Below are positions 1,274-44,969 of a stretch of 55,789 nucleotides of DNA, one piece after another (position 1 is the first letter of the stretch; each line of letters begins with the position of its first letter). The DNA is from a virus. The notes under the pieces were generated by a model, which was given only the letters and a program-made list of their open reading frames with translations, ran no database searches and was not told where the DNA came from. The stretch is taken from positions 1-55,789 of the IMG/VR virus record IMGVR_UViG_3300024259_000042; one strand, written 5' to 3'. A program made the translations under genes and the position numbers.

Positions 1274-1651
1274 ATGAGATTGCAAAGATTTTTAAATGAA
1301 GAGGATATGATTAAAAAGGCATTAGCTATTGATGAACCTGAAGTTAATAACGAATATACAGAAGAGGAGATTGCAGCTAATAAGGAAATACTTCAAATTG
1401 CTATAGGTAAACAAACAGAAATTTTAAGTAAATTAAGAAAAGGTAGTAATAATGATGATCAATTAGATGCTGCTCGTGCTATAATGGCAGATTTAAAAGA
1501 TAAAGAAGAGAAATGGGATAATCCTGAAAAGGAAACAAAATCCCAAGGACCAAATCCTCCAGAAGCTATGGGTGGAGGAATGGAAGAGGAACCTGCAGAG
1601 GAACCACCCAAAGAAGAGGAAGAAGAGGAACCTGAAGAAGAAGAAAAATAA
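1274..1651 (+). CDS. Acidic protein with capsid-targeting-type leader
   Basis: 125 residues starting MRLQRFLNE|E; the bar marks a predicted prohead-protease cut after Glu9 (L-N-E). The body is helical and ends in a very acidic Pro/Glu tail (residues ~90-125, runs such as EEPPKEEEEEEP). Such tails occur in phage scaffold or internal head proteins, but I cannot assign a function. It has a good ribosome site (AAGGGAG) and is followed 18 bases later by a strongly basic protein, so the two may form a charge pair in the head core. First gene after the terminator. Confidence 0.65.
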   Translation: MRLQRFLNEEDMIKKALAIDEPEVNNEYTEEEIAANKEILQIAIGKQTEILSKLRKGSNNDDQLDAARAIMADLKDKEEKWDNPEKETKSQGPNPPEAMGGGMEEEPAEEPPKEEEEEEPEEEEK

Positions 1652-1876: not shown

Positions 1877-1995
1877 TGAGATTAACAGAACATGTGCATA
1901 TATGCTGGTTTGGTGACAGTAGATGGGATAAAACCCTATACAAATGTGAAGTATTTTATAGATTAGGACACATAGGTATTATAAGGAAATTATGA
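1876..1995 (+). CDS. Small ORF, 39 aa
   Basis: A short reading frame starting in a TAATG overlap with the basic protein and ending in an ATGA overlap with the next gene, an arrangement typical of real genes here. The product begins MRLTEHVHICWFG, which shares only MRL with the leader family and has no Glu cut site. It could instead be filler whose start merely resembles the leader, or a decayed leader gene. Two Cys and one His are too few to suggest a metal site. Confidence 0.4.
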   Translation: MRLTEHVHICWFGDSRWDKTLYKCEVFYRLGHIGIIRKL

Positions 1996-2426
1996 GACTT
2001 CAAAAGTATATAAATGAAGAATATTATACTAGATTTAGAGGCTTTAATGGTAAGTCTTTTGAAATCTTTAAGAATCCTTCAGCTAAAGAATTAAAAAGTA
2101 TTTCAAGAAATGAAGTTGGAAATAAATATGATTTAAGATTTATTGCTGATAATACTACTAAAGATACATATATGTGGTTATGGGACGCTATTAACCATGA
2201 TAATATGATTAAAAAGCATTTAAGTAAAGAATTTAAAGGTAAAAAATATGAGGATCCTTCATTATTTTTAGGTACTTCAGATGATAAAGGTAATGATACT
2301 TTAGAATGGTTTATGCATAATGAACTTGATTTAGAATATATTGATGGAATTACCAGTATAAGTTGGAATTGGGCTAAACCCTTTCAAATAATGAAATATT
2401 TAAAAAAGTTGAATATAATAAAATGA
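1992..2426 (+). CDS. Family A paralogue with capsid-targeting-type leader
   Basis: 144 residues, leader MRLQKYINE|E (cut after Glu9). The body belongs to a family found seven times in this window (here called A): an NPS-x-x-E segment (KNPSAKELK), then LRFIAD, then a W-containing DA-x-x-H block (LWDAINHD), ending in a lone helix. The other copies are at 7543, 10681, 37935, 38920 and 43599, plus more distant relatives. Function unknown. It is coupled to its neighbours by 4-base overlaps on both sides. Confidence 0.7.
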   Translation: MRLQKYINEEYYTRFRGFNGKSFEIFKNPSAKELKSISRNEVGNKYDLRFIADNTTKDTYMWLWDAINHDNMIKKHLSKEFKGKKYEDPSLFLGTSDDKGNDTLEWFMHNELDLEYIDGITSISWNWAKPFQIMKYLKKLNIIK

Positions 2427-3934
2427 GATTAAAACGATATATTAATGAGTATGATATACCATTATTATTAGAAAAAATTAATAAAAAAGAAATTACATCT
2501 ATGCTTAATAGTAATGATGTTCTTATTGGTGCGGAATTTGAGTTTATTGTTGATGATGCTGGTATTTCCGATGAATTACAAAGAATGTATGATAATGCTG
2601 TAAATGATCTTGAAAATTATAATGATAATGTTGAGAATTATCGTGAGGAATATGAAGAAATTAATGATAAAAGAGATAAACTTGAAGATGATGTTACTAA
2701 ACTTGAAGATGAAATAGATAGATTATCAACACTTGATTATGATGAAGATGAAGAATTATTAGACAATCTTGAAACAGAAAAGGAAGAAAAAGAAACTGAA
2801 TTAAAAGAAACTGAAACTGAATTAGAAGAATTATATCCACCTTCAATAGGAAGTGATTATGAAGATTATATGCATCAGATTGGATGGGATTCATATGTTG
2901 ATCCTGGACAAGAAGTTGATGAACCACCACATCCAGAAGATGCAAATGATACTAGTGAAATGGAGCCAGAACAAATAGAACAATGGATTGATAATGTTAA
3001 CCCAAGACCACCATTTACAGATTGGGAAGTAGGTGAATATGGTTATTCATCTCCAAGACCAGGTGATACTACATGGGGAGTTGAACCTGATTCATCATTA
3101 AATACAGGTGGTATTGAAATAAAATCTCCTCCATTACCTTTAAAAGAGTTTAAAAATATATGTAAACAAATGTTTGATTGGATTAAAGTGGTGGGTACTA
3201 CTGATAGTTCTTGTGGTTTTCATATTCATATGTCATTAAAGAATGTAAAGGATTTGAAATCCGAACTTGATTTGATGAAGCTTGTTCTTTTTACTGATGA
3301 ACAATATATTTTTCAACATTTTAAAGAAAGAAAAAATAATACATATACACAATCTATGAAAGAAAAGATAAAAGGGGGTACCCTTGAACTTAGTGATTGG
3401 TCCGCATTTATAGATACTAAAAAATTAAAAAGAATAGCAACCTCCGATCATTATAGTGGTATTAGTTTAGATGGTTTAAGTGATAATAAACAACATATAG
3501 AGTATAGATATCTAGGTGGTACTGATTATCATAGAAAATGGAATAAAGTTCAAGTTATTATTGCACAATATGCTTATAATCTTAATCTCGCCTGTAATAC
3601 ATCGTTTAAACATAAAGAATATATTTTAAAAACTCAAAGATTATTTAGAAAGGTTGAGAGTAATATAATGAGTGAGATATATAGAGTTATAGACAATATG
3701 ATTATATTGAATGATAAATTGATAGAAGATAATAAAGGTAGTGAAAAAGCTGGTAAATGGTTGAGAAAATTAAGAAAGACTGTAAATATTAGTGTTATAA
3801 ATAAAAAATGGACAAATTGGTCTAATTTTGTTTTACATGATATTATGGGTAAATGGTTGAAAATAATGGGATGGAAAGATTTTGGTATGGAAATAGATGA
3901 TTATAGTTTAATGAATGATAGATGGACTAAATAA
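2423..3934 (+). CDS. Amidoligase-like enzyme with capsid-targeting-type leader
   Basis: 503 residues, leader MRLKRYINE|Y. After a linker comes IGAEFEF (about residue 36), a long acidic coiled coil (~50-140), then WGVEPDSSLN, GGIEIKSPPLP and CGFHIHMSL (about residue 270). These are the hallmarks of the Amidoligase_2 / COOH-NH2 ligase fold, ATP-grasp-related to glutamine synthetase. Known relatives are thought to form amide or peptide bonds on peptidoglycan or proteins. The leader suggests delivery into the host at infection, perhaps to modify a host protein or the wall. The coiled-coil insertion between strand 1 and the core is unusual. Confidence 0.75.
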   Translation: MRLKRYINEYDIPLLLEKINKKEITSMLNSNDVLIGAEFEFIVDDAGISDELQRMYDNAVNDLENYNDNVENYREEYEEINDKRDKLEDDVTKLEDEIDRLSTLDYDEDEELLDNLETEKEEKETELKETETELEELYPPSIGSDYEDYMHQIGWDSYVDPGQEVDEPPHPEDANDTSEMEPEQIEQWIDNVNPRPPFTDWEVGEYGYSSPRPGDTTWGVEPDSSLNTGGIEIKSPPLPLKEFKNICKQMFDWIKVVGTTDSSCGFHIHMSLKNVKDLKSELDLMKLVLFTDEQYIFQHFKERKNNTYTQSMKEKIKGGTLELSDWSAFIDTKKLKRIATSDHYSGISLDGLSDNKQHIEYRYLGGTDYHRKWNKVQVIIAQYAYNLNLACNTSFKHKEYILKTQRLFRKVESNIMSEIYRVIDNMIILNDKLIEDNKGSEKAGKWLRKLRKTVNISVINKKWTNWSNFVLHDIMGKWLKIMGWKDFGMEIDDYSLMNDRWTK

Positions 3935-4233
3935 TGAGATGTTTTCAAACAACATATGATATGGATGATTTTGTTTATCTTAAAGGTGACGGTGAGCCAA
4001 AGATAAGAAGGAGTAGAATTAAAGGTATAAAAATAATTATAGGAAAACCTTATAAAACATTTGATGAAGAATTTGGTATGATTATTCACCATTCTGGAGT
4101 AGAAGTATATTATTTTGTAAATGTTAGAAGTGATGAGAATCATGTATATAGAGATTGGCGTAAAGAAGAGGAGTTATATAAAAGGAAAGAGGATATAAGT
4201 AAAGATAATGAGATTCCACAATTACATAAATGA
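3934..4233 (+). CDS. Hypothetical protein, 99 aa
   Basis: Unrecognised. Starts MRCFQTTYDMDDF, without the leader motif, in a TAATG overlap with the amidoligase gene. The fold looks like a small beta-rich domain (residues 10-75), followed by a charged helix (WRKEEELYKRKEDISKD). It overlaps the start of the CCA-enzyme gene by 26 bases, so the two are likely translationally coupled. Confidence 0.6.
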   Translation: MRCFQTTYDMDDFVYLKGDGEPKIRRSRIKGIKIIIGKPYKTFDEEFGMIIHHSGVEVYYFVNVRSDENHVYRDWRKEEELYKRKEDISKDNEIPQLHK

Positions 4234-5629
4234 ACAAGCATTGAAGGGTTGGAAAGACTATGTTAAATCCAATAAAATGCTTAAAGCCTCTATAAAAATC
4301 CTTGATAAGATTGAAAAGAAAGGATATAAAGCATGGGTGGTTGGAGGAAGTGTTAGGGATATTATCATAGGTAAAGAGCCTCATGATGTTGATATTGCCA
4401 CCACCTGTCCAATGGATGTCCTAGATAAAATATGGAAGACCTATGATATAGGTTCCTCTAAAGATTTTGGTATTGTTACTGTCAAAGAAAGTGGATATGA
4501 TTTTGAGATTGCACAACTTAGAGGGGAATCCAAGTATGATGGTCGTAAACCTGAATCAGTTAAGTTTAATGTTCAGTTGAAGGATGATTTAGGTAGAAGA
4601 GACTTGACAGTGAATGCTATGGCTATTGATAAGAATGGTAACATTATTGATAAGTTCAATGGTCAAAAAGCAATGAAAGATAAAGTATTGAAAACAGTAG
4701 GTAATCCATATGACAGGTTCTCGGAAGATTTTTTACGGATCATGCGTGTTGCACGATTTGCTGCTAAGCTTGGTTTTGACATTGATAAAGATACTAAGAA
4801 GGCTGCAACAAAGTTATCAGGCAATATCACTAAACTTTCACCAGAACGAATTAAAGAAGAAATACTGAAATCCGCTGGTCAGTCAGGAGATAAGTTCGCT
4901 AAGTATATCCTTTTACTTGATCAATTGAAGATACTTAAACATATATTACCTGAATTAAAACAGTTACAATATAGTAAAGAGAATCCAACGCATCATCCTG
5001 AAACTGTTGGGAAAGGTGGCTCTCCATTTGCTCATACTATTGAAGCATTGAAAGCAAGTAAGACAAAGGATCCATTGAAGAACTTGGCTATACTGTTACA
5101 TGATGTTGGTAAGGGTACATCGTTTAGTGATTCTACACCTGGTAAATCTTTTACATATTATGGACATGATAAGGATGCTATCAAACTTATTGAAACCATT
5201 GCTAAGAGACTAAAGATGTCTAATAGTGAAAAGGAAGCATTGTTATATACTGCTACACAACATATGAAACTAAACATATTGAAAGACATGAAACCATCTA
5301 AAATCTTTAAAATAGTCAATAATGATAATTGGGATATTCTTGTGGTAGTAGCCAAAGCGGATGAAATGAGTAGGGGTGAGACTTTTAAAACAGAAAAAGA
5401 ATTTGATGAGATGATTAAATATGCTGAAGATATAAAAAACAAATGGAGTTCTAAAAAAGTAAAAGAAATATTTTCAAAACAGGTTAATGGTAAACATATA
5501 ATGGAGTTATTAAATATAGGACCATCCAAAAAGGTTGGTAAAGTAAAGAAGAAAACGATTGAATGGATAATAAATACAGGTGAAACAAACCAAAAAAATA
5601 TAGATTCTTATATAATGGAATTTAAATAG
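4208..5629 (+). CDS. CCA-adding-type tRNA nucleotidyltransferase with HD domain and leader
   Basis: 473 residues, leader MRFHNYINE|Q. The head domain has VVGGSVRD (~43-50) and HDVDIA (~59-64, the metal-binding DxD), then the GRRDLTVNAMA and DRFSEDFLRIMRVARF motifs of class II CCA-adding enzymes / bacterial poly(A) polymerases. An HD phosphohydrolase domain follows (LLHDVGKG, ~296-303), as in the E. coli enzyme. The likely reaction is adding or repairing the CCA end of tRNA, with possible 2',3'-cyclic phosphate removal by the HD part. Poly(A) synthesis is the main alternative. The leader implies it is carried in the virion, which would let it act on tRNAs before any phage gene is expressed. 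Confidence 0.88.
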   Translation: MRFHNYINEQALKGWKDYVKSNKMLKASIKILDKIEKKGYKAWVVGGSVRDIIIGKEPHDVDIATTCPMDVLDKIWKTYDIGSSKDFGIVTVKESGYDFEIAQLRGESKYDGRKPESVKFNVQLKDDLGRRDLTVNAMAIDKNGNIIDKFNGQKAMKDKVLKTVGNPYDRFSEDFLRIMRVARFAAKLGFDIDKDTKKAATKLSGNITKLSPERIKEEILKSAGQSGDKFAKYILLLDQLKILKHILPELKQLQYSKENPTHHPETVGKGGSPFAHTIEALKASKTKDPLKNLAILLHDVGKGTSFSDSTPGKSFTYYGHDKDAIKLIETIAKRLKMSNSEKEALLYTATQHMKLNILKDMKPSKIFKIVNNDNWDILVVVAKADEMSRGETFKTEKEFDEMIKYAEDIKNKWSSKKVKEIFSKQVNGKHIMELLNIGPSKKVGKVKKKTIEWIINTGETNQKNIDSYIMEFK

Positions 5630-5685: not shown

Positions 5686-5715
5686 ACAAAATAAAAACCT
5701 TTGAAGGAGGTAGTT

Positions 5716-6864: not shown

Positions 6865-7122
6865 ATGTTATGGATAACACTAATAATTCAATTGATACCA
6901 GTTATAATGAAACTTATAGAGATTGCTGAGAAACTTTGGGTGGATGATGAAGGTGCTGGATCATCAAAGAAGAATATGGTAATGGTAGCTTCAAAGGAAA
7001 TGGTAATAGCTAAAAGTGATGAAGAAACCTGGGATAAAATAGAGGGAGCGGTTGGTGATATAGTTGATGCTTCCTGTAGAGTTGTAGTTCCTAATAAAGG
7101 TGAGGAAGTATATGCGGCTTAA
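6865..7122 (+). CDS. Small protein with N-terminal hydrophobic helix
   Basis: 85 residues. LWITLIIQLIPVIMKLIEIAEKLW (2-25) could be a membrane anchor or an amphipathic helix; the rest is soluble with one Cys. It has a clear ribosome site (AAAGGAG) and overlaps the next gene by 11 bases. No family recognised. A structural or lysis-accessory role is possible but unsupported. Confidence 0.55.
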   Translation: MLWITLIIQLIPVIMKLIEIAEKLWVDDEGAGSSKKNMVMVASKEMVIAKSDEETWDKIEGAVGDIVDASCRVVVPNKGEEVYAA

Positions 7123-7543
7123 ACAATACATAGTAAATGAACTCTTTGATACAGATGTTCTCATTAATACATCTATGAAAAGATATGATAAGCATTTATA
7201 TCGTTTTGGTATTGATGGTTTGCAATATAGATTTGATGCTATTTTTGATGAAGATGAAGGATGGCAAATATTTTTTGGTATAGAAAAAGGTAAAAAAATG
7301 GATGTTAGTATAACTAATACAGGCAATCAAAATAAAGTATTTGCTGCCGTTTTAAAATGTCTTAAAATATTCTTAAATAAAGTAAAACCAGATAGAATAT
7401 TCTTTACAGCAAAAGAACCTAGTAGACAAAAATTATATGATAGGATGTCTAAATTATTAACTAAAATGTTTCCATATAAAATAGATAGACAGGATATACA
7501 TAGATTTGATAAAAGTAAGTTTTATGGTTTTACGAGGTCATAA
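7112..7543 (+). CDS. Family B paralogue with leader (VNE-LFD)
   Basis: 143 residues from ATG 7112, chosen because the product then begins MRLKQYIVNE|LFDTDV like its paralogues (ATG 7100 adds only four residues). Family B (other copies at 7989, 9938, 10995 and, diverged, 43069) has a beta-rich first half, a middle ITNTGNQNKVFAAVLKCLKIFL helix, and a signature strand plus helix, FFTAKEPSRQKLYDR. The last part resembles the substrate-binding region of GNAT acetyltransferases by eye, but this is weak. Function unknown. Confidence 0.7.
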   Translation: MRLKQYIVNELFDTDVLINTSMKRYDKHLYRFGIDGLQYRFDAIFDEDEGWQIFFGIEKGKKMDVSITNTGNQNKVFAAVLKCLKIFLNKVKPDRIFFTAKEPSRQKLYDRMSKLLTKMFPYKIDRQDIHRFDKSKFYGFTRS

Positions 7544-7989
7544 TGAGACTTAAACAATACATAACAGAACTTTATATGAAGGATAGAGGTAAGAAATCTA
7601 TTGAGATACTTGAAAATCCCTCTAAAAAAGAAGTGAGTGATGTCATTAGAAATAGTAAAGGTGATAGTGTTAAATTCATTGCCTATAAGAAGGATATATA
7701 TTTATGGGATGCTTATTCTTCTATATTACATGATGATGTTTGGGTAAAACAAGGTAGAGACTTGGAGGATGATATAGCGGATACTATTATATTTCCAGGT
7801 TATGCTATTTGGAAGGGTGGTAAACTTGTAATGAATCAGGTTTCAGTATATTTAGAGGATCATTTATTAGATTGGGATAACGAAAAGGTATATACTGATA
7901 GATTGGATGCTTTTGAAAAGAAATTCAAATGGCTTAACACTTTCATAGACACATCATTTTTAAGAAGATCCATTGAGAGAAATTTCTAA
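7543..7989 (+). CDS. Family A paralogue with capsid-targeting-type leader
   Basis: 148 residues, leader MRLKQYITE|L. Family A signatures follow in order: LENPSKKEV, VKFIAYKKDIYLWDAY, LHDDVW, and a C-terminal KWLNTFIDTSFLRRS, the same ending as in the copies at 38920 and 43599. It overlaps family B genes by one base at each end (TAATG), so A and B members alternate in one translationally coupled run. Function unknown. Confidence 0.7.
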   Translation: MRLKQYITELYMKDRGKKSIEILENPSKKEVSDVIRNSKGDSVKFIAYKKDIYLWDAYSSILHDDVWVKQGRDLEDDIADTIIFPGYAIWKGGKLVMNQVSVYLEDHLLDWDNEKVYTDRLDAFEKKFKWLNTFIDTSFLRRSIERNF

Positions 7990-8465
7990 TGAGACTACAA
8001 CAATACATGATAACTGAACTCTTTGATACTAAGGTGCCTATTAAACTTAAAGAAAGGGATAAAAATCCATTTGGCGAAACATACTACTATGAATTCCTTA
8101 TAGATGATTATAAATATACATTCATTGGTGAATTCTTTAAGTATCCTGATAAGGAAGAATATAAAGAATCTTCAGTATTAACAGTAGAATTTCACCAAGC
8201 AGGTTTTTATGAAATAACTGATGCTGGTGACGCATTTAAAGTATTTTCTGCTGTGAAATCTTGCCTAATGGATTTATTGAAGAAATTACCTGAAAAACCT
8301 GATTCAATTTCTTTTAGTGGTACTGATAGTGAACCAAGTAGAATTAAATTATATGATAGATTTGCAAAGGTAATTCCAAGAATACTAAAGGGATATAAAT
8401 TTATAGGCAAAGAACATGAATTAGATGGTAAAAGTTATAAATTTAGAAGTAAAAAGAGGAGGTAA
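7989..8465 (+). CDS. Family B paralogue with capsid-targeting-type leader
   Basis: 158 residues, leader MRLQQYMITE|LFDTKVP (Glu10). The core keeps the family B helix (GDAFKVFSAVKSCLMDLLKKL) and the EPSRIKLYDRFAKV signature. It is slightly longer than its siblings because of an extra loop (KYPDKEEYKESS). The ITE-LFD junction matches the T4 Alt processing site as I remember it. Function unknown. Confidence 0.7.
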   Translation: MRLQQYMITELFDTKVPIKLKERDKNPFGETYYYEFLIDDYKYTFIGEFFKYPDKEEYKESSVLTVEFHQAGFYEITDAGDAFKVFSAVKSCLMDLLKKLPEKPDSISFSGTDSEPSRIKLYDRFAKVIPRILKGYKFIGKEHELDGKSYKFRSKKRR

Positions 8466-8470
8466 AGGTT

Positions 8471-8959
8471 ATGAAAATGTTATGGTTTTTAATTATTTCG
8501 TTGTTTCTGATGGTAGGTAATGTTAATGCAACTTACATAGATGATTTCAAAGGTAATGATAAAGACAATGTGGTTGACCAACTCCTTATAGATAATAATT
8601 GGACAAATATAACCCTTGGAAGTTTAGAATTACTTGGTAAATCAGATGAAGGTATTAATGTCGTTTTAAATGAGACAGATGGCACCTGGTCCTTAGATCC
8701 TTCAAATCAATTGAATATAAATGATATTGGATTCATATCAGTTAAAGCTGGTAATAATAGTTATGTATTCAGATCAAATGATTTCAATTATCTTTTTGGT
8801 ATTGACGGTTCCCCTGTGTTTACAAAGGATGTATCACATATAAGTTTTTGGAAAGGTGGAGGATATGAGGGTCCAGGTGGACAAGTACCTGAACCAATAA
8901 CATTATTCTTATTAGGATCAGGTTTACTATATATGAGTATTAGAAGGAAAATTAAATGA
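8471..8959 (+). CDS. Secreted protein with PEP-CTERM sorting signal
   Basis: 162 residues. The N terminus (MKMLWFLIISLFLMVGNVNA) is a signal peptide with likely cleavage after NVNA. The C terminus reads VPEPITLFLLGSGLLYMSIR followed by RK residues: a VPEP motif, a hydrophobic helix and a basic end, which is the textbook PEP-CTERM signal recognised by exosortase (EpsH/XrtA). The middle is an Asn/Asp-rich beta-type domain (HISFWKGGGYEGPG near the end). In bacteria these proteins are exported and sorted in exopolysaccharide-producing Gram-negatives. It lies in the leader-gene run with a good AGGAGG site. It may coat or alter the host surface late in infection, or be a captured host gene. Confidence 0.85.
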   Translation: MKMLWFLIISLFLMVGNVNATYIDDFKGNDKDNVVDQLLIDNNWTNITLGSLELLGKSDEGINVVLNETDGTWSLDPSNQLNINDIGFISVKAGNNSYVFRSNDFNYLFGIDGSPVFTKDVSHISFWKGGGYEGPGGQVPEPITLFLLGSGLLYMSIRRKIK

Positions 8960-9636
8960 GACTAGAGAAATATATAAATGAGATAACCAAGGTATCCGAT
9001 AGTTATACCAATAAAATAGTGGATGCTGGACTCATTAACTATAAGAATATCATGAAAAAGATCAAGATTAAAGCCTGGCCCATACAGTTGGCAGCCCTTG
9101 CATCTGCTTTTAAAGACTTCAATATAACCTTCATGATAAAAGATTACAAATGGATGAACAAATTCTTTAAGATTGATCAAGATGATATAGGCTCAACAAC
9201 AAAAGTCCAAGGTACACCTATACAAATAATACTCAAGAAAAAAGAATTGAAGAATATAACATCTGGTTTCATAAAGAAAAAAATATCTAAAGTTCTTACA
9301 CATGAGCTGGTGCATAGAAAACAATTTACTTCTATGGATCCAGAATTTATGAAATATTATAGCCTTAAAAATGCTGATATAACACAATATTTTTCACGAA
9401 AAGAGGAAATTGAAGCATACGCAAGGGATGCTATAAATGAATTAAAAGATGGTAAATCTGATATTGTGGATTCTTATTTTTATTGGATTAAGGGTATGTC
9501 TATGGAATTATGGAAAAGATTTCTAAAGAAATTATATCAATATCAGGATCTATATGGTGATGATATATCCAAGAAGAATTTAATAAAACAACTACCTGAA
9601 TTGGGAACTGAGGAGGAGGATGAGGATGAAATTTAA
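8956..9636 (+). CDS. Zincin metallopeptidase with capsid-targeting-type leader
   Basis: 226 residues, leader MRLEKYINE|I. The centre has THELVHRKQF (~115-124), a HExxH zinc site, and 25 residues later KEEIEAYA, where a Glu serves as third ligand, so this is a gluzincin-like layout. The C terminus is strongly acidic (TEEEDEDEI). Predicted to cut a protein, either inside the capsid during maturation or in the host after injection. The substrate is unknown. Overlaps the signal-peptide gene upstream by 4 bases. Confidence 0.75.
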   Translation: MRLEKYINEITKVSDSYTNKIVDAGLINYKNIMKKIKIKAWPIQLAALASAFKDFNITFMIKDYKWMNKFFKIDQDDIGSTTKVQGTPIQIILKKKELKNITSGFIKKKISKVLTHELVHRKQFTSMDPEFMKYYSLKNADITQYFSRKEEIEAYARDAINELKDGKSDIVDSYFYWIKGMSMELWKRFLKKLYQYQDLYGDDISKKNLIKQLPELGTEEEDEDEI

Positions 9637-9937
9637 AGACTTTGTAATAAATGAGGAAAGACTTGGGAAGAATGATAAGAAGTGGTTGAAGGATTATATT
9701 AAGAATCCTAAGAATGATACCTTTACAATACAATCCTTTAAGAATAAGTCTGAAGTGGATGTTAAGAAGATAAAGGATGGTGTTCAATTTCAATATGATT
9801 TAGATAATTATGAATTAACTAATGAATTGGTTGATTTAGTTGACAGTATGGGTGGATATAAGTTTAGCACAAAAAGTGAGAAAAGTATTAATGCTATGAA
9901 TTTTAAAGTTACATTAAAAACCCCTAAAGGAAGATAG
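9626..9937 (+). CDS. Small basic protein with capsid-targeting-type leader
   Basis: 103 residues from ATG 9626 (MKFKDFVINE|E); AGGAGG at 9611-9616 is 9 bases from this ATG and only 3 from the one at 9620. Lys-rich, alternating strands and helices, no recognised domain. The start lies inside the metallopeptidase gene's acidic tail codons (a GGAGGAGGATGAGGATG stretch serves both as coding sequence and ribosome site). Confidence 0.6.
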   Translation: MKFKDFVINEERLGKNDKKWLKDYIKNPKNDTFTIQSFKNKSEVDVKKIKDGVQFQYDLDNYELTNELVDLVDSMGGYKFSTKSEKSINAMNFKVTLKTPKGR

Positions 9938-10348
9938 ATGCGACTGCAACACTATATAACTGAACTATTTGATACTAAAGTTGATATAAAAATAGTAAAA
10001 CAAAATCCTTCTATGTGTATATATGAATTCACTATAAAGGAATTAAAATATTCCTTTAAAGCTGATAAATATAGAGGAACATGGGAAATATTATTCGTAA
10101 GTGATGTGGGAATAAGTATAACTGGAACAGGTAATGCTATACAAGTCTTTGCAGCAATTGCTAAATGTTTAGATATATTTTTAAAGAAATATAAACCCAT
10201 GGTGTTTTGGTTTAGTGCAAAAGAACCAAGTAGAAAGAAATTATATTTAAAAATGTCCAAACTTATTACAAAGAAATATTCTTATAAATTTAAAACTGAA
10301 AGTGAAGATATAGAAGATGACGAAATATATGTATTTAAGAGGAACTAA
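9938..10348 (+). CDS. Family B paralogue with capsid-targeting-type leader
   Basis: 136 residues, leader MRLQHYITE|LFDTKVDIK. It is closely similar to the copy at 10995 across the body: GTWEILFV, GISITGTGNAIQVFAAIAKC, FLKKYKPM, FWFSAKEPSRKKLY. The leader codons differ from those of 10995 mostly at third positions, which argues for selection on the peptide rather than recent DNA copying. Starts directly after the previous stop. Function unknown. Confidence 0.7.
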   Translation: MRLQHYITELFDTKVDIKIVKQNPSMCIYEFTIKELKYSFKADKYRGTWEILFVSDVGISITGTGNAIQVFAAIAKCLDIFLKKYKPMVFWFSAKEPSRKKLYLKMSKLITKKYSYKFKTESEDIEDDEIYVFKRN

Positions 10349-10681: not shown

Positions 10682-10983
10682 TGTCCGAGGGATCGTCTAT
10701 AACAGGACTGACAGATGTATGGGATAGTAAAAAATTTAAACCACTTGAAGTCTTTATAAATCCTTCTAGGAGTGTATTAAAAGAAATAGCACCTCATGTT
10801 AGATGTGTAATTGATGATAAAAGTAAAACACTTTATGCATGGGATGGTACAAGTGCATTACATTATGATGTATGGAAAAATATACTAAAGAAAGAGCTTA
10901 AAGATAAACGAAAATATGATGATGTTACATTAAGACGTAGTAATTACGAACACGGTGATCGCTATCCTGATCCTAATAGATAA
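10681..10983 (+). CDS. Family A paralogue lacking the leader
   Basis: 100 residues. It carries the family A core (FINPSRSVLKEI, VRCVIDDKSKTLYAWDG, SALHYDVWKNIL) but begins MSEGSSITGLTDVW, without MRLxxYxxE, and lacks the C-terminal KWLN...WLRR helix. It may be a truncated relic or a form that stays in the producing cell. Starts in a one-base TAATG overlap. Confidence 0.6.
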   Translation: MSEGSSITGLTDVWDSKKFKPLEVFINPSRSVLKEIAPHVRCVIDDKSKTLYAWDGTSALHYDVWKNILKKELKDKRKYDDVTLRRSNYEHGDRYPDPNR

Positions 10984-10994: not shown

Positions 10995-11408
10995 ATGAGA
11001 CTACAACAATACATAACTGAACTATTTGATACTAAGGTTGATATAAAAGTAGAGAAGCAAACCATGTCGGCTGATATATACACTTTTGTTATAGATGATA
11101 TAGAATATTCATTCCATGCTAGAAATGAAAAAGGAACATGGGAAATAGCATTTTCACAATATGAAGGAATTGGTATAACTGGGAGTGGAAATGCACCACA
11201 AGTATTTGCAGCAATAAGTAAATGTTTAGATATGTTTTTAAAGAAATATAAGCCTATGGAGTTTTGGTTTAGTGCAAAAGAACCAAGTAGAAGAAAATTA
11301 TATAAGAGATTTGCTAAACTTATAACAAGAAAGTATCGCGCATATGATTTCAGAATGGACAAGGCTTATGACGGTGATGATGTCTTTATATTTTCAGATA
11401 AATCATAG
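10995..11408 (+). CDS. Family B paralogue with capsid-targeting-type leader
   Basis: 137 residues, leader MRLQQYITE|LFDTKVDIKV. Sister of the gene at 9938 (GTWEIAFS, GIGITGSGNAPQVFAAISKC, FWFSAKEPSRRKLYKRFAKL). It is the last plus-strand gene before the convergent UvsW gene and overlaps its end by 6 bases; I see no hairpin terminator at the junction, so convergent transcripts may run into each other. AAAGGAAAC precedes the start. Confidence 0.7.
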   Translation: MRLQQYITELFDTKVDIKVEKQTMSADIYTFVIDDIEYSFHARNEKGTWEIAFSQYEGIGITGSGNAPQVFAAISKCLDMFLKKYKPMEFWFSAKEPSRRKLYKRFAKLITRKYRAYDFRMDKAYDGDDVFIFSDKS

Positions 11409-25475: not shown

Positions 25476-25766
25476 TTAGTATTTTTTTTCAATAATAGCG
25501 TCAATAATAATTTCAATATTATGACCTAAACTTTCTTCACCCATTTTTTGAACCCAATAGTAAATCTGATATTTAACATCTTCCATTTCATTTTCAGTTA
25601 TATCATTAGACATACTTATAGCCTTTTTACCTATTGTATCAAAAAGATCAGCACGAAGTTTCTTGGTTTTAACCATATAACCTTTAACCATCTTTTTAAT
25701 GGAGGCTACATCAGAACTAACATTCCTTTCTTCATCTAATATATATTTACCCAGTTTACTTTTCAA
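25476..25766 (-). CDS. Helical protein with capsid-targeting-type leader
   Basis: 96 residues, leader MKSKLGKYILDE|E (L-D-E at residues 10-12). The body is basic then acidic helices (SVASIKK-like, YMVKTKKLRADLFDTIGKKA, YWVQKMGEESLGHNIEIIIDAI). Unrecognised. Last gene of the leftward late region (its 3' end at 25476 faces the transglycosylase gene); no hairpin is visible in the 60-base gap, only a T-rich run on the plus strand at 25485-25492. Overlaps the upstream gene by 11 bases. Confidence 0.6.
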   Translation of the reverse strand: MKSKLGKYILDEERNVSSDVASIKKMVKGYMVKTKKLRADLFDTIGKKAISMSNDITENEMEDVKYQIYYWVQKMGEESLGHNIEIIIDAIIEKKY

Positions 25767-26196
25767 GTTCTTCCTCCTTCTTTTTATCTTGTTCAGTATC
25801 CACTACATCCCTTACATCTTCTTCATCACCATCTTTTGCTTCCTCTGGTTTCTCATCAAAAGGTTGCCCTTTAGCATGCGCTCTTGTTTGAGGAATAATA
25901 CTTGCTTTCTTACCTATAACCTGAACTATTTGTCTAAGAGCTAATACATATTCACCTTGTTCTTTCTCCATATTAGCAAGCATAAGACCGATTTTATATT
26001 GAAATGAAGGATTATCTTCTATTTTATCAATCTCAGATTCAATCATTTCAACGAAGGTATCCATATGATCGTCTAATTTGATTAATTCCTTTTTTAATAC
26101 AACCTTGGATTTCTTACGAGTAGCATCTTCTGCTTTAACCTTCTTCTTCTCATCATCCGTCATATCCATTTCATTCATAAAATCTTGTAATCTCAT
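25756..26196 (-). CDS. Acidic-tailed protein with capsid-targeting-type leader
   Basis: 146 residues, leader MRLQDFMNE|M (Glu9). Helical, with a central coiled-coil-like part (LIKLDDHMDTFVEMIESEIDKIEDN) and a charged C-terminal tail (EEAKDGDEEDVRDVVDTEQDKKKEEELEK), much like the protein at 1274-1651. Possibly a head-core or scaffold-like internal protein. Function not assigned. Confidence 0.6.
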   Translation of the reverse strand: MRLQDFMNEMDMTDDEKKKVKAEDATRKKSKVVLKKELIKLDDHMDTFVEMIESEIDKIEDNPSFQYKIGLMLANMEKEQGEYVLALRQIVQVIGKKASIIPQTRAHAKGQPFDEKPEEAKDGDEEDVRDVVDTEQDKKKEEELEK

Positions 26197-26465: not shown

Positions 26466-27770
26466 TTATATATCATCCCACAAGTCAGGTGAATCTCCTT
26501 CATCATGGAAATTACCCTTTCTATCACGACCACCTTTCCATTTGCCTAATATCCATTTACCACCTTGCCAGAGTCCACCATCAAAAACCCCACCTTCCCA
26601 TCTTCCATCCTTCCAAACACCACCTTTAAAGGTTCCATCTTCAAATGTTCCATCCCACCAGATTCCATCTTTCCACTCACCATCTTTCCACTCACCATCA
26701 AACCATTCACCTTTTTCCCATGTTCCATTATGCCATAAACCATTATCCCATTGACCATCTTGCCAGATGCCATCTTTCCAAACACCATAATACCAATTAC
26801 CATTCACCCATGTACCATTATGCCAGATACCTTCATCCCAAGTGCCATCATGCCAGATACCTTGAAAATGTTCACCATCTTCCCACTCACCATCATTCCA
26901 TTCACCATTTAACCAATTACCATTACGCCATCTACCATTGTTCCATATTCCTCGTATCCATTGACCATCTTTCCATACACCATCTTGCCAGACTCCATTC
27001 ATCCATGTTCCTTTATGCCATACACCATTCATCCACATTCCATCTAGCCATACACCATCACGCCATATACCATCTTGCCATTTTACGAATTCATCATTAG
27101 CGACATCATATACCGCATCAATGGTTTTTGCTTTATCAACAAATGAAGGTTTACGACCAAAATGTTTTTTATGTATTTCACTATATAACCTTTCCATTTT
27201 ACTATTATTTAATTTATTGATATTAAGGTCTGGTATATCATTAACAGCTTTATCATTAGAATCAAACATTTCATACATACCACTTGCATCAGGATATACA
27301 GCAACAGCATATTTGGTATCAGTACCTATAAGATATATAAGGGTTACGCCTCTATCTAATACATAATCATCCCAATATTGTTGGTCTTTTTGGTAGGCTG
27401 TGCACCATCTACCTTCACATCCACCTATATCCTTTGATGCTATGAATTTTGATGCTTCCCAAGATAAAGGTATATAAGCGTTATAATTTTTTGAAACATT
27501 TTTCAATTCTATATAATCCTTATTTTTCTTGAGTCCTTTGATGCCTTGCTTTTTAACACCTTTACTTATAGACCTTTTAGAACGATAATCTAATACTGAC
27601 TTGAAATCACTAAAAGTAAGTTTTTTATTATTCCAATCAATCATCGCTTCAAGTTTGGGATTATTAGAGGAGAATAGAGGCATAAGGATATCTTTCTCTT
27701 CCTTGGAAAGATTCTTTAATCTCTTTATAATATGGTCTTTCTTCTCTAGTAGGTAGTGTTGGAATCTCAT
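26466..27770 (-). CDS. WxDGxW repeat protein with capsid-targeting-type leader
   Basis: 434 residues, leader MRFQHYLLE|K (L-L-E). Residues ~10-225 form a globular domain with a GGCEGRWCTAYQKDQQYWDDY segment and LIYLIGTDTKYAVAVYPD, a motif found in other phage proteins of unknown role. From ~235 to ~415 the chain is about 36 units of five residues, mostly W-x-D/N/G-G-x, such as WKDGQWIRG and WFDGEWKDGEWKDG. Such periodicity suggests a beta-solenoid or beta-stack with a tryptophan ladder, MORN-like in principle. If injected, it could act as a DNA mimic, a scaffold or a sugar binder; none is proven. Confidence 0.8.
   Translation of the reverse strand: MRFQHYLLEKKDHIIKRLKNLSKEEKDILMPLFSSNNPKLEAMIDWNNKKLTFSDFKSVLDYRSKRSISKGVKKQGIKGLKKNKDYIELKNVSKNYNAYIPLSWEASKFIASKDIGGCEGRWCTAYQKDQQYWDDYVLDRGVTLIYLIGTDTKYAVAVYPDASGMYEMFDSNDKAVNDIPDLNINKLNNSKMERLYSEIHKKHFGRKPSFVDKAKTIDAVYDVANDEFVKWQDGIWRDGVWLDGMWMNGVWHKGTWMNGVWQDGVWKDGQWIRGIWNNGRWRNGNWLNGEWNDGEWEDGEHFQGIWHDGTWDEGIWHNGTWVNGNWYYGVWKDGIWQDGQWDNGLWHNGTWEKGEWFDGEWKDGEWKDGIWWDGTFEDGTFKGGVWKDGRWEGGVFDGGLWQGGKWILGKWKGGRDRKGNFHDEGDSPDLWDDI
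26525..27080 (-). repeat. 15-base coding repeat (WxxGx units)
   Basis: Read on the minus strand, a TGG-N6-GGN-N3 unit of about 15 bases recurs some 36 times without spacers, coding for the Trp/Gly pentads of the gene above. Units vary at the x positions and at third bases, so the array is old rather than freshly expanded. Slippage or unequal crossing-over could still change copy number. Confidence 0.85.
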
Positions 27771-36428: not shown

Positions 36429-37127
36429 TTATGCATTCCTTTTGTTACCTATTGCATCACCATATGATTTCGTTAAAGGTAATAATTTCTTTAATGGTAA
36501 ATCAATCATAAGTGCATTAACTTGAATACTAGGATCAATTAGCATGGCAGATAAGAACCTATGATGTCCATCTATGATATATTTATCTTTACTAATTATA
36601 AAGAAGGACTTATTTTTGATGAAATTCATACTACCTTTAACTCCATTCTCTATGGTTGAACCCATTGATTTATCAAAATATATTTGCTTCTGTATAGGCT
36701 TCAATTCATTAACCTTTACCTTAGTAATATTAACATCAATTTGATCATCTTTTATAGATCCATCCTTTAAGCCATTCTCTAAGAAGGATTGAGCTGATAA
36801 TCCACTCAACCCCTCTGGAAATGGATTCTTTACACTTGTTTCATCAGCAAATGGTTTATTGATGTCAATATTACCTTTCTTCAATCTTGCTTGTAGCTTA
36901 CGAACATCTTCAGTTTCAATTACAGGCATATCAACTCTTTTAGTCCATCCCTTTTTAGCTTTATCTTTGGCGGCTTCAAAATGTTCCTCAAATCCAGGAA
37001 TATCTGAAATATCAAAATTCTTTTTACTGGCAAAATCTAATGCCTGCTTGATATTCATCTTATGGATTTCCATCTTACCGGATTCTTCACCACCTGCCTC
37101 ATCTATGATATATTGTTGAAATCTCAT
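36429..37127 (-). CDS. ParB/Srx-fold protein with capsid-targeting-type leader
   Basis: 232 residues from ATG 37127, overlapping the upstream stop, giving leader MRFQQYIIDE|A (I-D-E, Glu10). The C-terminal third has IYFDKSMGST and KYIIDGHHRFLSAMLIDPSIQVNALMID, the GHHR core of the ParB / sulfiredoxin-like fold that binds CTP or ATP and acts as nuclease or phosphotransferase in some members. The first ~130 residues are helical and basic. Injected with the DNA it could protect or process it; the activity is not predictable from this. Confidence 0.75.
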   Translation of the reverse strand: MRFQQYIIDEAGGEESGKMEIHKMNIKQALDFASKKNFDISDIPGFEEHFEAAKDKAKKGWTKRVDMPVIETEDVRKLQARLKKGNIDINKPFADETSVKNPFPEGLSGLSAQSFLENGLKDGSIKDDQIDVNITKVKVNELKPIQKQIYFDKSMGSTIENGVKGSMNFIKNKSFFIISKDKYIIDGHHRFLSAMLIDPSIQVNALMIDLPLKKLLPLTKSYGDAIGNKRNA

Positions 37128-37515: not shown

Positions 37516-37935
37516 CTACCATGGCCCCCATGTCTCATTTAATGCTATAGATTTTCTTGCTTCTTCAAATTTAAATCGTTTCTTAACCTTTGGTAAATAT
37601 ACTTTATAGTATTCTTCTTTATCATAAAACATATCAAATACTGCTTCATATACTATTTTACCTTTTTCAGACCAAGCATGCTCATAATTACTACCTTCAT
37701 GTGGTCCTAATGGTGGATTTAATATACCATGACATAGTGACCATCCTTTGTTATATAATACAAACTCTCCAGATAGCATATAACATTCACCTTGTCTTTG
37801 TTTTAATGTATTTATATTAACACCTGATGGTTTCTTTAATGGTTTCATTGTAAGAGCCATCATTTTTCTTTGAAATAGATCCTGTCCCTCAGGTGGAAAC
37901 ATTTTCTTTAGGTCTTCCATTTCTTTTTTATTCAT
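37516..37935 (-). CDS. Possible papain-fold protein
   Basis: 139 residues. QGECYMLSGEFVLYNKGWSLCHG (~48-70) and YEHAWSEKGKIVYEAVFD (~83-100) give Cys, then His in HAW, then an acidic residue, the order of a cysteine-peptidase/transglutaminase-like fold seen in several small phage proteins with a G-x-C-Y...HAW pattern. Catalysis is not certain. One base overlap with the next leader gene. Confidence 0.45.
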   Translation of the reverse strand: MNKKEMEDLKKMFPPEGQDLFQRKMMALTMKPLKKPSGVNINTLKQRQGECYMLSGEFVLYNKGWSLCHGILNPPLGPHEGSNYEHAWSEKGKIVYEAVFDMFYDKEEYYKVYLPKVKKRFKFEEARKSIALNETWGPW

Positions 37936-38366
37936 TAAAACCCATCCTCATAATAATCACCTGATTTCAATAATCCTATAAAATGTTTAATATCTATATA
38001 ACTATTAGCCCATAAGAATTTATTCAATACATTCTTAATAACCTCTTCATATTCTCTATTATTATATCTTATATATGTCATTACTTCATCTGAATTAACC
38101 ATTGACCATTTACCTTTAACTCTTTGAGCCATTCCAAATAAAGTTTTACCAGTTATATGAAGTTTATTATAAACTGTTTGATGTATTGCTTTTGAAGCAT
38201 CCCATACATATACATTCTTTTTTGAACCATCTAATATAAATCTTCCATACATAGATGCTTTAAGAAGTTTATTTATTTCACTTGTAGATGGATTCTTTAA
38301 AACCTCATATTTATTACCTATATAAGTTTCCATCCATTCTTCATTTATGTATTGTTTAAATCTCAT
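37935..38366 (-). CDS. Family A paralogue with capsid-targeting-type leader
   Basis: 143 residues, leader MRFKQYINE|E. Family A core: VLKNPSTSEINKL, GRFILDGSKKNVYVWDAS, AIHQTVY, then KFLWANSYIDIKHFIG at the end. Far from the plus-strand copies (1992-10983) and on the opposite strand, so the family is spread through both late regions. Function unknown. Confidence 0.7.
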   Translation of the reverse strand: MRFKQYINEEWMETYIGNKYEVLKNPSTSEINKLLKASMYGRFILDGSKKNVYVWDASKAIHQTVYNKLHITGKTLFGMAQRVKGKWSMVNSDEVMTYIRYNNREYEEVIKNVLNKFLWANSYIDIKHFIGLLKSGDYYEDGF

Positions 38367-38920
38367 TATGATACTAATCCTTGTAAAGACCTTTCAAATT
38401 TAGCTAATGCTTGTAATTCTGCATCTGTATCACCCATACGTTTTAAAGTTATTTTCATATCCTTTAGAGTATTTGATATATATTCAGCATCCTTTAACCA
38501 ATTGGTATAGGATGTTACTTCAATACCAAAAGCTGATTGAAATATATGTCTTATATGTGAGGATACACCAACAGTAGATTTATCTATTTGTAACAACATG
38601 TTAGTTACATCTTTTTTCTTAATTCTTTTAAATACTTGTTTGGCATCTTGTGTGAGTTCCTTTCTGGAGGCATTATCTTTTATATCAGTAAGCATGAATA
38701 GAGCAGCATATCTTAATAAATCTTCCACACCTGTATTGATACCTTTAAAATAGTCAACTAAAGACTTTGATCTTTTAACTTTAAATCCTATTTTTTTACC
38801 AGCTTGTGACAATTTCTTTAATGTATCATCCTTTAATTCATTTAGTTCTAATGATTCACATAAAACTAAATAATCCTTTAAAAAGGAAGATTTATCATTT
38901 AAATAATTCTCAAATCTCAT
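38366..38920 (-). CDS. Helical protein with degenerate leader
   Basis: 184 residues from ATG 38920 (overlapping the upstream stop as TAATG). It starts MRFENYLND|K, where Asp replaces the Glu of the cut site, so processing may fail. All-helical: LKKLSQAGKKIGFKVKRSKSLVDYF, YAALFMLTDIKDNASRKELTQDAKQVFKRIKK, WLKDAEYISNTLKDMKITLKRMG. No family recognised; a late box lies just upstream at 38949-38956. Confidence 0.6.
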   Translation of the reverse strand: MRFENYLNDKSSFLKDYLVLCESLELNELKDDTLKKLSQAGKKIGFKVKRSKSLVDYFKGINTGVEDLLRYAALFMLTDIKDNASRKELTQDAKQVFKRIKKKDVTNMLLQIDKSTVGVSSHIRHIFQSAFGIEVTSYTNWLKDAEYISNTLKDMKITLKRMGDTDAELQALAKFERSLQGLVS

Positions 38921-39420
38921 TACGAATGTCTCCTTAACCATTTTGTTATATTTATATATCTATTCAGCCATTTAAAGTTTTCTGAAATTTTATTAAAATC
39001 CACTGTACCATAATTCTTATCATCATAACTTACACCATTTGGGTTAGGTTTAGATAATTTTATTTGTTGATTGTTCATACCACTCAGTTCATCACTTGAA
39101 TCCATTACCCATTTAGAGCCTTGTTTTTCAGCAACACCCCAGATCAATTCATTAGTAGCCATTAAATCCATGTCTTCCCTGTTTTTCCCAACAAATTTTT
39201 TCTTATACCATACATCACTATGAAGTGCCGCATCAGCATCCCAAACCCATAAATCTTCATCATCATAATCAGCAATGAATCTTATTGGATCACCGTTGGC
39301 AGCATCTTGTAAGTCTTTTAATTCAATAGGTTGACCAAACAATTCAAAAGTATCCCTACTTCTACCTATTCTAGGCATTCTGGATATATATTCTTCATTT
39401 ATATATTTTAATAATCTCAT
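38920..39420 (-). CDS. Family A paralogue with capsid-targeting-type leader
   Basis: 166 residues, leader MRLLKYINE|E. Full-length family A: FELFGQPIELKDLQDAANG, IRFIADYDDEDLWVWDADAALHSDVWYKK, LIWGVAEKQGSKWVMDSSDE and ending KWLNRYINITKWLRRHS. Closest to 43599-44063 in the WGVAxKxxGKW segment. Function unknown. Confidence 0.72.
   Translation of the reverse strand: MRLLKYINEEYISRMPRIGRSRDTFELFGQPIELKDLQDAANGDPIRFIADYDDEDLWVWDADAALHSDVWYKKKFVGKNREDMDLMATNELIWGVAEKQGSKWVMDSSDELSGMNNQQIKLSKPNPNGVSYDDKNYGTVDFNKISENFKWLNRYINITKWLRRHS
38949..38956 (-). promoter_or_regulatory. Possible late promoter
   Basis: TATAAATA on the minus strand inside the last codons of the family A gene, about 29 bases before ATG 38920. 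Spacing fits a late start site, but a chance match within coding DNA cannot be excluded. Confidence 0.35.
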
Positions 39421-40885: not shown

Positions 40886-41557
40886 TTATTTAATCTCCTT
40901 TAGTTTTCCTGATGGTAGTACCAATAATCCATAGAAGGATATAATAGGTAATTGCTCATCATCTTGTATATTATGTTTATCTTTCACCCTGTCTAAAATT
41001 GTTTGAGGTATTGTATGCTTAATGGTAAGAAATTCTTTAATATTTGCTAAATGATCATCTATAAGTCTAACCCTTCTATAATCACCAGATTTCAAATACT
41101 TTAAGATTATTTTTTTCTTTTTTTGTGCTGTTGAGCCATCCTTTACATTTCCTGCTCTTTCAACATACATATTATCAATAGGTATATTATGGTCTCTGAA
41201 TGTATTTAGAAATTCTTTCTTATTATCGAAGTCAGTCCTAGCGGTTAAAATCATTATTTTTGATTCTCTTTTATCTATATTCTTAATCATTCGTTTTATT
41301 CTATTAACTGTTTGAGGTATTGGTATGGCTGTTTTTCTAAAGATTTCAGCACTTCTAAATTCACCAAAATTGAATTTTTCACCAGGTTCCAATTTATATG
41401 AATTAAATTCTTGGTTGGTTAACTTTTTAGTAATCTTATTATCCTTCAGAACATATATTTTTGAAAAGGTTTTAAATATAGTTTCATCCAAGTCAATGAA
41501 TGTTATACCTTTCCCATAATCAGATGATAATTCGTTTAAAAAATTCTGCAATCTCAT
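40886..41557 (-). CDS. HAD-family phosphatase with capsid-targeting-type leader
   Basis: 223 residues, leader MRLQNFLNE|L. HAD motifs: TFIDLDETIF (~20-29, nucleophile Asp and general acid), MILTARTDF (~102-110, Thr), a Lys-rich segment (KKKKIILKYL, ~145) and RVRLIDDHLANI (~161-172, DD metal ligands). Similar small HAD proteins occur in T4-like phages. It could act on polynucleotide ends or nucleotides as T4 Pnkp's phosphatase half does; substrate unknown. First gene left of the divergent late promoters. Confidence 0.8.
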   Translation of the reverse strand: MRLQNFLNELSSDYGKGITFIDLDETIFKTFSKIYVLKDNKITKKLTNQEFNSYKLEPGEKFNFGEFRSAEIFRKTAIPIPQTVNRIKRMIKNIDKRESKIMILTARTDFDNKKEFLNTFRDHNIPIDNMYVERAGNVKDGSTAQKKKKIILKYLKSGDYRRVRLIDDHLANIKEFLTIKHTIPQTILDRVKDKHNIQDDEQLPIISFYGLLVLPSGKLKEIK

Positions 41558-42604: not shown

Positions 42605-43057
42605 ATGCATAATATAAAAGATGTAAGAGGTAAACAACAATATATACCTCGTGATCCTGTTAAGTATGTAGGTAAATACCCTATTATAATTAGAAGTTCC
42701 TATGAAAGGAAGTTCTTCCAATGGTGTGATGCTAATCCTAAGGTATTAGAATGGAGTTCTGAATCTATAGTTATACAATACTTTGACCCTGTTAAGAATA
42801 AAAGGAGAAGATATTATCCTGATGTATATATGCTGGTGAAGGGTAGAGAGAAAAACCAACAATTCGTAATTGAAATAAAACCATTTAAAGAGACCCATCC
42901 ACCTATAAATAGAGGAAAGAAAAAGAAGAAAACTCTATTATATGAAGAAAGAACATTTGCAACTAATAATGCTAAATGGAAGGCAGCTATCAACTGGTGC
43001 AGCAAAATGGGAATGGTATTTAAGATTATTACTGAAAGGGAATTGTTTGGGAAATAA
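42605..43057 (+). CDS. gp4-like head completion protein
   Basis: 150 residues, the same length as T4 gp4 (also called gp50/65). VKYVGKYPIIIRSSYERKFFQWCDANPKVLEWSSESIVIQYFDPVKNKRRRYYPDVYMLV (~17-77) follows the T4 pattern PxKYxGDPxxIxYRSxxERKFMxWCD...W.SE...IPY.SPVD...HRYF.D. The YYPDVY...FVIEIKPFKE part has the PD...ExK layout of a nuclease fold. In T4 it finishes full heads before tail joining. Good evidence that this block is late head-assembly. Confidence 0.85.
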   Translation: MHNIKDVRGKQQYIPRDPVKYVGKYPIIIRSSYERKFFQWCDANPKVLEWSSESIVIQYFDPVKNKRRRYYPDVYMLVKGREKNQQFVIEIKPFKETHPPINRGKKKKKTLLYEERTFATNNAKWKAAINWCSKMGMVFKIITERELFGK

Positions 43058-44153: not shown

Positions 44154-44969
44154 ATGATAATATATAAAGCTACAAATAAAATTAATGGTAAATGTTATAT
44201 AGGTAAAACTACAAAAAATTTGAAAACTAGAAAAAAGCAACATATCCAAGATTCAAAAAAGAGTAAATATTATTTTCACAGAGCCATAAATAAATACGGT
44301 TCTGATAATTTTCAATGGGAAATAATAGAAAAATGTAAAAATGAGAGTAAATTATCAGAAAGGGAGGAATTTTGGATAGAAAAGAATGGTGATTATAATA
44401 TCATAAAAACATCAAGAGGTCCAGGATGCAATGGATATAAAAATAATCCGAGAATAGATGAAATTAAAGAAACTATAAGTAAAGGTGTATTAAAAGCTTT
44501 AGAAGATGATCCTTCTATAAGACAAAGAATAAGTGAAGGTAGAAAAAAAGCTATGTTGGAACCTGGTGTAAGAGAAAGATATAAAAAAGCGGCTAAAAAA
44601 AGATGTAATACAAAAGAATGGAAAGAAAAACAATCTATAATAGCTAAAAAACAAATGACGGATGAGAAAAAGAAGCTAATGTTAAATGGCCTTAAAAAGA
44701 AATATGCCGATAAACAATTTTTGGATTATTTGGATAAAAAACAGAGAGAACCTGGCGGAGCATATAGTAAGGAAGTAATCAGAAAGAGATCAAATAGTAA
44801 AGCTGAAGATTGGTTTATATGGAATGATAAAGGTGAGGAATATACAATAAAAAATCTGAGTAATTTTTGTAAAGAACATAATCTTTCAAATTCATCTATG
44901 AGTATGATTGCATCAGGAAAAAGAAATGTTCACAAAGGATGGAAATGTAGGAAATTGAATGGCTATTAG
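44154..44969 (+). CDS. GIY-YIG homing endonuclease
   Basis: 271 residues. N-terminal nuclease: MIIYKATNKINGKCYIGKTT (GIY-YIG), TRKKQHIQDS (Arg), SEREEFWIEKNGDYNI (catalytic Glu region). Then NUMOD3-like basic helices (RQRISEGRKKAMLEPGVRERYKKAA, KKQMTDEKKKLMLNGLKKKY) and a C-terminal NUMOD1-type helix-turn-helix (IKNLSNFCKEHNLSNSSMSMIASGKRNVHKGW). AAAGGAG ribosome site. Inserted between a family A gene and the gene at 44959, which it overlaps by 11 bases. Not close to the GIY-YIG protein at 12830. Confidence 0.93.
   Translation: MIIYKATNKINGKCYIGKTTKNLKTRKKQHIQDSKKSKYYFHRAINKYGSDNFQWEIIEKCKNESKLSEREEFWIEKNGDYNIIKTSRGPGCNGYKNNPRIDEIKETISKGVLKALEDDPSIRQRISEGRKKAMLEPGVRERYKKAAKKRCNTKEWKEKQSIIAKKQMTDEKKKLMLNGLKKKYADKQFLDYLDKKQREPGGAYSKEVIRKRSNSKAEDWFIWNDKGEEYTIKNLSNFCKEHNLSNSSMSMIASGKRNVHKGWKCRKLNGY

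Follow-up and report, generated by a model that had tools for sequence, protein, structure and literature searches.

The closest described systems are the internal head proteins of phage T4 on one side and the CCA-adding enzymes of bacteria and phages on the other. In T4, several unrelated proteins (IPI, IPII, IPIII and Alt) carry at their N-terminus a propeptide, about 9-10 residues in length, with L/I-x-E at its end. The ipII and ipIII genes start MKTYQEFIAE/A (the slash marks the cleavage position), ipI has ITE/A at 19, and Alt starts MELITE/LFD. The first 10 residues of IPIII are enough for packaging, and the protease gp21 cleaves after L/I-x-E (PMC9026906). The internal proteins are injected, and they can be anti-defence factors (PMC9391042). 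Bacterial class II CCA enzymes, including those of Planococcus halocryophilus (6qy6) and Geobacillus stearothermophilus (1miv) and E. coli Cca, have a head and neck fold, motifs A, B and D and a flexible loop, with no N-terminal leader. E. coli Cca has an HD-type domain. The phage tRNA nucleotidyltransferases (phrog_2244) of Escherichia phage Av-05, Klebsiella KpS8 and Sinorhizobium phiN3 begin straight at the catalytic domain (MKVYLVGG...). Phage repair of tRNA is known as a matter of expression after entry, through kinase and ligase, CCA enzymes and variant tRNAs.

The window, that is, the whole stretch of DNA analysed here, is a linear virus record of 55,789 bases with 85 predicted genes. 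Its sequence marks it as part of a T4-like phage genome: many gp43 records of cyanophages and other T4-type phages are among the best matches of its family B DNA polymerase, and it encodes a gp4-type head closure protein and a gp2-type DNA end protector. We propose that one of its genes (Table 1) encodes a CCA-adding enzyme with a T4-type capsid-targeting propeptide, which is probably packaged, cleaved and injected and would then repair tRNA 3′ ends. A preliminary description had given this reading frame class II nucleotidyltransferase and HD domains and the leader MRFHNYINE; Pfam and the motifs bear this out, the HD domain being weak by Pfam but with its residues invariant. Since the frame is open for just 3 codons 5′ of the ATG, the start of the gene is secure; its first 10-12 codons are MRFHNYINEQAL. 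The T4 late promoter TATAAATA has 27 matches in the window versus 17 expected, none of them just upstream of the CCA gene, which counts against the proposal. A non-exhaustive search of the open-access literature found no paper that reports a virion-borne CCA enzyme for any phage.

Table 1. Positions of the CCA gene, its parts, the other leader-bearing genes and two T4-type genes without leader in the window.
Feature	Position	Strand	Basis
CCA-type class II tRNA nucleotidyltransferase gene, 473 aa	4208..5629	+	
Leader MRFHNYINE, predicted T4-type capsid-targeting sequence	4208..4234	+	census, conservation, pLDDT, T4 comparison
Predicted gp21-type cleavage after E9, I-N-E/Q	between 4234 and 4235	+	T4 analogy
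Catalytic head domain PolyA_pol, residues 42-161	4331..4690	+	Pfam E 7e-30
Motif A, G46-G47..D60-x-D62; motif B, R130-R131-D132	inside 4331..4690	+	catalytic head
Flexible loop region, residues 105-121, RGESKYDGRKPESVKFN, invariant R113	4520..4570	+	alignment, homologue conservation
Motif D, E173-D174-x-x-R177	4724..4738	+	alignment, homologue conservation
PolyA_pol RNA-binding (neck) domain, residues 189-251	4772..4960	+	Pfam E 1.6e-12
HD phosphohydrolase-type domain, residues 293-358	5084..5281	+	weak Pfam, H298-D299 invariant
ORF MRLQRFLNE	1274..1651	+	motif census
ORF MRLQKYINE, A2 family (five window copies)	1992..2426	+	motif census
Amidoligase-like, MRLKRYINE	2423..3934	+	Pfam Amidoligase_2 E 4e-10, motif census
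MRLKQYIVNE, DUF6934-like family A1	7112..7543	+	Pfam, motif census
ORF MRLKQYITE, A2 family	7543..7989	+	motif census
MRLQQYMITELFDT, A1 family	7989..8465	+	motif census
ORF MRLEKYINE	8956..9636	+	motif census
ORF MKFKDFVINE, from ATG at 9626	9620..9937	+	motif census
MRLQHYITELFDT, A1 family	9938..10348	+	motif census
MRLQQYITELFDT, A1 family	10995..11408	+	distant homologue comparison, PA5oct
ORF MRLQDFMNE	25756..26196	-	motif census
WxxG repeat protein, MRFQHYLLE	26466..27770	-	motif census
ORF MRFQQYIIDE	36429..37127	-	motif census
ORF MRFKQYINE, A2 family	37935..38366	-	motif census
ORF MRLLKYINE, A2 family	38920..39420	-	motif census
HAD-like protein, MRLQNFLNE	40886..41557	-	weak Pfam match, motif census
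T4 gp4-type head closure protein, no leader	42605..43057	+	phrog_218 E 2e-48
T4 gp2-type DNA end protector, no leader	44959..45471	+	phrog_429 E 3e-9

The assignment to the CCA-adding type, also made in the preliminary description, is well supported by Pfam, the best NCBIfam model, the motifs, invariant residues and the fold, and we regard membership of this class as very likely, with CCA addition as the predicted activity. Family and motifs are evident in the translation. The residues G46, G47, R50, D51, D60, D62, R130, R131 and D132 of motifs A and B, E173, D174 and R177 of EDxxR and R113 of the loop are invariant across 26 homologues, as are H276, H298, D299, H320 and H352 of the HD domain, which in Pfam reaches only E 0.0015 (19.3 bits versus a cut-off of 22) and is shared with E. 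coli Cca. Motif D is presumably the amino-acid template for CTP and ATP. The head and neck fold, the three motifs and the loop are common to the window enzyme and the bacterial enzymes; the loop aligns over its full length, with DGR, to E. coli Cca, PcnB and bacterial and phage enzymes. Class II enzymes with such features are known to add CCA. In the AlphaFold model (mean pLDDT 88.9, pTM 0.86), the nearest solved folds are the CCA-adding enzymes 6qy6 and 1miv (E 2.5e-18).

One could suppose that the enzyme is virion-borne but has another activity: it might be a poly(A) polymerase, add only CC or only A, or serve mainly as an HD phosphohydrolase on RNA ends. The invariance of the HD residues would suit the last of these. 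The best NCBIfam model is the CCA tRNA nucleotidyltransferase PRK13299 (245 bits; pcnB, 131 bits), and its score lies below the equivalog cut-off of 290, although this cut-off was made for naming bacterial and archaeal proteins and a divergent phage enzyme may score below it. Activities can also diverge, as CC-adding enzymes, which in bacteria are without the flexible loop, are thought to have descended from CCA-adding ones through loop loss (PMC7014341). However, the PAP I signature [LIV][LIV]G[RK][RK]Fx[LIV]h[HQL][LIV] (PMC8208693) is absent from the window enzyme and present in the positive control, E. coli PcnB, which speaks against a poly(A) polymerase. The presence of the loop with its invariant arginine, missing in bacterial CC-adding enzymes (PMC8208693, PMC7014341), speaks against CC addition, and the nearest folds are those of CCA-adding enzymes; the signature, loop and fold tests do not discriminate against an A-adding enzyme. 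The human enzyme cannot add A without its loop arginine, R105, for which a salt bridge to the EDxxR glutamate has been proposed (PMC11784652); R113 may be its counterpart. Taking both sides together, we consider a different activity quite improbable.

The leader is not confined to the CCA gene. The start-anchored motif M[RK][FL]xx[YF](x)[LIVM]xE stands at the beginning of 17 of the 85 predicted window genes and at none of 274 internal methionines; shuffling the N-termini 2000 times gave 0.025 such starts on average and never more than 1. The tagged proteins, which include amidoligase-like, HAD-like and DUF6934-like ones among others, are mutually unrelated save for two paralogous families. In relatives, the leader is also found on a zeta-type kinase, C39 peptidases, a RimK-type ATP-grasp protein and a NUDIX protein; it is absent from replication proteins and from all six RNA ligases checked in these phages. 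With similar numbers of tagged proteins in some relatives, the leader constitutes a readable tag, from which one can predict, in a form open to test, the proteins that uncultivated T4-like phages inject. Residues 1-8 are the sole stretch of the model with a pLDDT below 50, so that removal of the leader should leave the fold undisturbed.

Alternatively, the protein could be an ordinary phage enzyme for tRNA maturation or repair, made during infection, whose leader has another role (for example, in translation or in protein stability through the N-terminus) or leads to packaging only incidentally. The sharing of one amino-acid pattern by many unrelated proteins, and its absence from replication proteins and the checked RNA ligases, argue against this, and so does the agreement of the leader with the T4 capsid-targeting sequence down to L/I-x-E (PMC9026906). 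As in T4, the propeptide is found on several unrelated proteins of the window, although it is mostly 9 residues long, as opposed to 10 in T4, and is present on 17 proteins in a 56-kb fragment, enzymes among them, compared with four well-known ones in T4. Neither T4 nor PA5oct encodes a PolyA_pol-family protein, whereas the window tags one.

Because the leader of ipII and ipIII is one residue longer, the T4 internal proteins are missed by a profile built without gaps from the phage leaders, and a gapped pattern was used for T4. In the whole T4 DNA, the pattern M-K/R-x(3-4)-[YF]-hydrophobic-x-E coincides with the start of a real gene in three places, ipII, ipIII and 61.1; three of the other four matches begin frames of just 10-18 residues, and the fourth could not be assigned as a start. 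Gene 61.1 (NC_000866.4 18966-19130; L241, L248), a short hypothetical gene adjoining 61.2 (adfA), starts MKTFKEFIKEDM, near the capsid-targeting sequence of ipII and ipIII, and may encode an unrecognised internal protein.

The protease and substrate that such a leader calls for are matched in relatives and not in the window itself, neither a gp21-type (S77) prohead protease nor a gp23 capsid gene being present in the 55.8-kb fragment. One 204-kb contig (G004; L034) combines a CCA gene that bears the leader with an S77 prohead protease and a gp23 with DISE/A, upstream of a conserved VRRTFP stretch and at about the position of LTE/A in T4 gp23. A protease and a gp23 of this kind also occur in four other relatives (G005, G006, G007 and G009), with SINE/A in G009 and SLNE/A in G007. 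In form, these gp23 sites agree with the ends of the leaders. The preliminary description had predicted that the enzyme travels in the virion. The T4 match, the conserved leader, its recurrence on other proteins and these protease and capsid genes support this prediction comparatively, and we predict that the CCA enzyme is an internal head protein. In G004, the gp21-type protease frame (L092/L093; G004:C1:198943-200448, - strand; 576 aa) seems to be split by an intein-like insert starting CIFGDNEILTKDGWKEIQN.

The same description held CCA enzymes to be rare in phages, which is incorrect, as a homologue is found in 460 of 50,697 GenBank phage records. This breadth, with no leader on any of the GenBank phage CCA proteins checked, is what one would expect of an ordinary enzyme. 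Vibrio phage D479 likewise encodes a PolyA_pol-family protein without leader. The enzymes of Av-05, KpS8 and phiN3 belong to the same family as the window enzyme and, unlike it, have no leader; the two such phage enzymes placed in the tree, those of Av-05 and Tunturi_5, are not part of the clade with leaders. Viral contigs scanned with a profile gave 80 loci; the sole match of a single-protein scan (L002) was false, the matched peptide lying within a 3414-aa ORF. The leader is kept on the CCA gene at 15 of the loci, counting the partial L022 and L027, with L015 and L016 identical and the N-terminus the same in L022 and L043. Examples are MKFENYINEA (L009), MRLTRYLNEA (L014), MRFKRYLNEA (L017) and MKFIQYINES (L034). 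In 13 aligned leader-bearing CCA proteins, M1, Y6 and E9 are invariant, positions 2, 3 and 7 are R/K, F/L and I/L, respectively, and positions 4, 5, 8, 10 and 11 are variable.

The leader-bearing enzymes share about 49-56% identity with that of the window, and in a quick maximum-likelihood tree they lie inside a virus-only clade of 33 rows (SH-aLRT 99). No leader was seen on bacterial CCA homologues; the window enzyme differs from the bacterial enzymes both in its leader and in its place in that clade. On the tree, the leader needs three changes, two of them forced by starred branches, and its gain or loss must therefore have happened repeatedly. Within the viral clade, several members (L024, L033, L035-L037) are without it, so the leader is not essential to the enzyme. 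These leaderless members also count in favour of an ordinary enzyme, a reading that we nonetheless regard as unlikely.

We infer packaging, cleavage, injection and activity. Late in infection, the leader would direct the protein to the core of the prohead. Cleavage behind E9 by the phage's gp21-type protease would leave the mature form, which begins at Q10, inside the head; this form would enter the next infected cell alongside the DNA and could rebuild tRNA 3′ CCA ends from CTP and ATP ahead of phage gene expression. Packaging in the head appears quite likely and injection probable. Delivered in this way, the enzyme would be at work from time zero, the moment at which first-response defences operate.

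What would such an enzyme be for? In seven related contigs, at least 100 of the 121 tRNA genes have the terminal CCA exactly 3′, and it is clearly absent in 7; thus, maturation of phage tRNAs mostly needs no CCA enzyme. Maturation as the main need is disfavoured on this ground and by the lack of tRNA genes in the window fragment, on which Rfam gave no match, and we favour repair or upkeep of tRNA ends as likelier. The large tRNA arrays and RNA ligases of the relatives would accord with an ordinary maturation or repair enzyme made during infection, whereas the CCA already encoded in their tRNAs does not. In one relative (L119; G005 9212-9763), ARAGORN identifies a tmRNA gene within an array of 30-plus tRNAs.

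The preliminary description had also proposed the repair of tRNA 3′ ends damaged by host defence nucleases. The CCA-encoding tRNAs of the relatives make this plausible, and so does Cas12a3, which cleaves tRNA CCA tails as antiviral immunity (PMC12851939). According to its authors, viral resistance would require means yet unknown, and a head-borne CCA enzyme would be a candidate answer to defences that cut CCA tails, for which they knew of no counter-measure (PMC12851939). No link was found from the CCA gene or its phage to Cas12a3 or any particular nuclease. The other target suggested there, damage by anticodon toxins, is a poor fit. A cut anticodon needs a kinase and a ligase, and a CCA enzyme cannot rejoin such a break. 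The undoing of tRNA 3′-end damage by host defence or stress nucleases is the most speculative part of our proposal. It is possible, rather than probable, that repair of defence-inflicted tRNA damage is the purpose, and only tentatively do we suggest a pre-emptive, injected counter-defence in which the virion-delivered enzyme restores 3′ ends cut by Cas12a3-like immunity or toxins.

A quite different purpose would be that of a takeover weapon, the injected enzyme disabling host tRNAs (for instance, by CCACCA tagging for decay) and shifting translation to phage tRNAs. Other leader proteins resemble host-takeover effectors (zeta-type kinase, C39 peptidase, NUDIX and RimK-like), and the tRNA arrays of the relatives would serve such a shift. 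However, every core motif expected of a faithful CCA enzyme is intact and the sequence has no sign of a harmful variant, and we consider a weapon of this kind very improbable. Runs of leader genes with ART-like xYRGx, zeta-type kinases and a C39 peptidase occur in two relatives (L101-L102, G004 18523-29472; L141, G003 105185-108914) and are predicted to be islands of injected effectors. By eye, several leader proteins of relatives are ADP-ribosyltransferase-like (xYRGx), with no confirmation by Pfam.

The two paralogous families of the window deserve mention. A1 comprises four DUF6934-like paralogues in 7112-11408 (+ strand), three with ITELFDT and one with VNELFDT, and this N-terminus (..ITELFDT) resembles those of T4 Alt (ITELFDE) and alt.-1. 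A distant A1 homologue in phage PA5oct, starting MHLFELFDQ, is recorded as an ESI-MS/MS structural protein. A scan with the DUF6934-like family as query found no relative. A2 (the "NPS" proteins) comprises five divergent paralogues, four with the leader, the fifth copy being at 43599-44063; the family is too variable for use as a scan query. Similar-looking leader-bearing proteins (MKFSDLLNEKYFKTV...FVNPSSDEV) are found in G005.

Among the other genes, the amidoligase-like one has a detectable homologue in just 9 GenBank phage records, and the protein with many WxxG repeats has no Pfam match. Two similar HNH homing-endonuclease-like genes lie at 5701-6639 (+ strand, with NUMOD3 motifs), directly after the CCA gene, and at 32210-33001 (- strand). 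A long GTSGSSGTSG repeat at 30443-31024 (- strand) lies in an apparent tail or fibre gene region.
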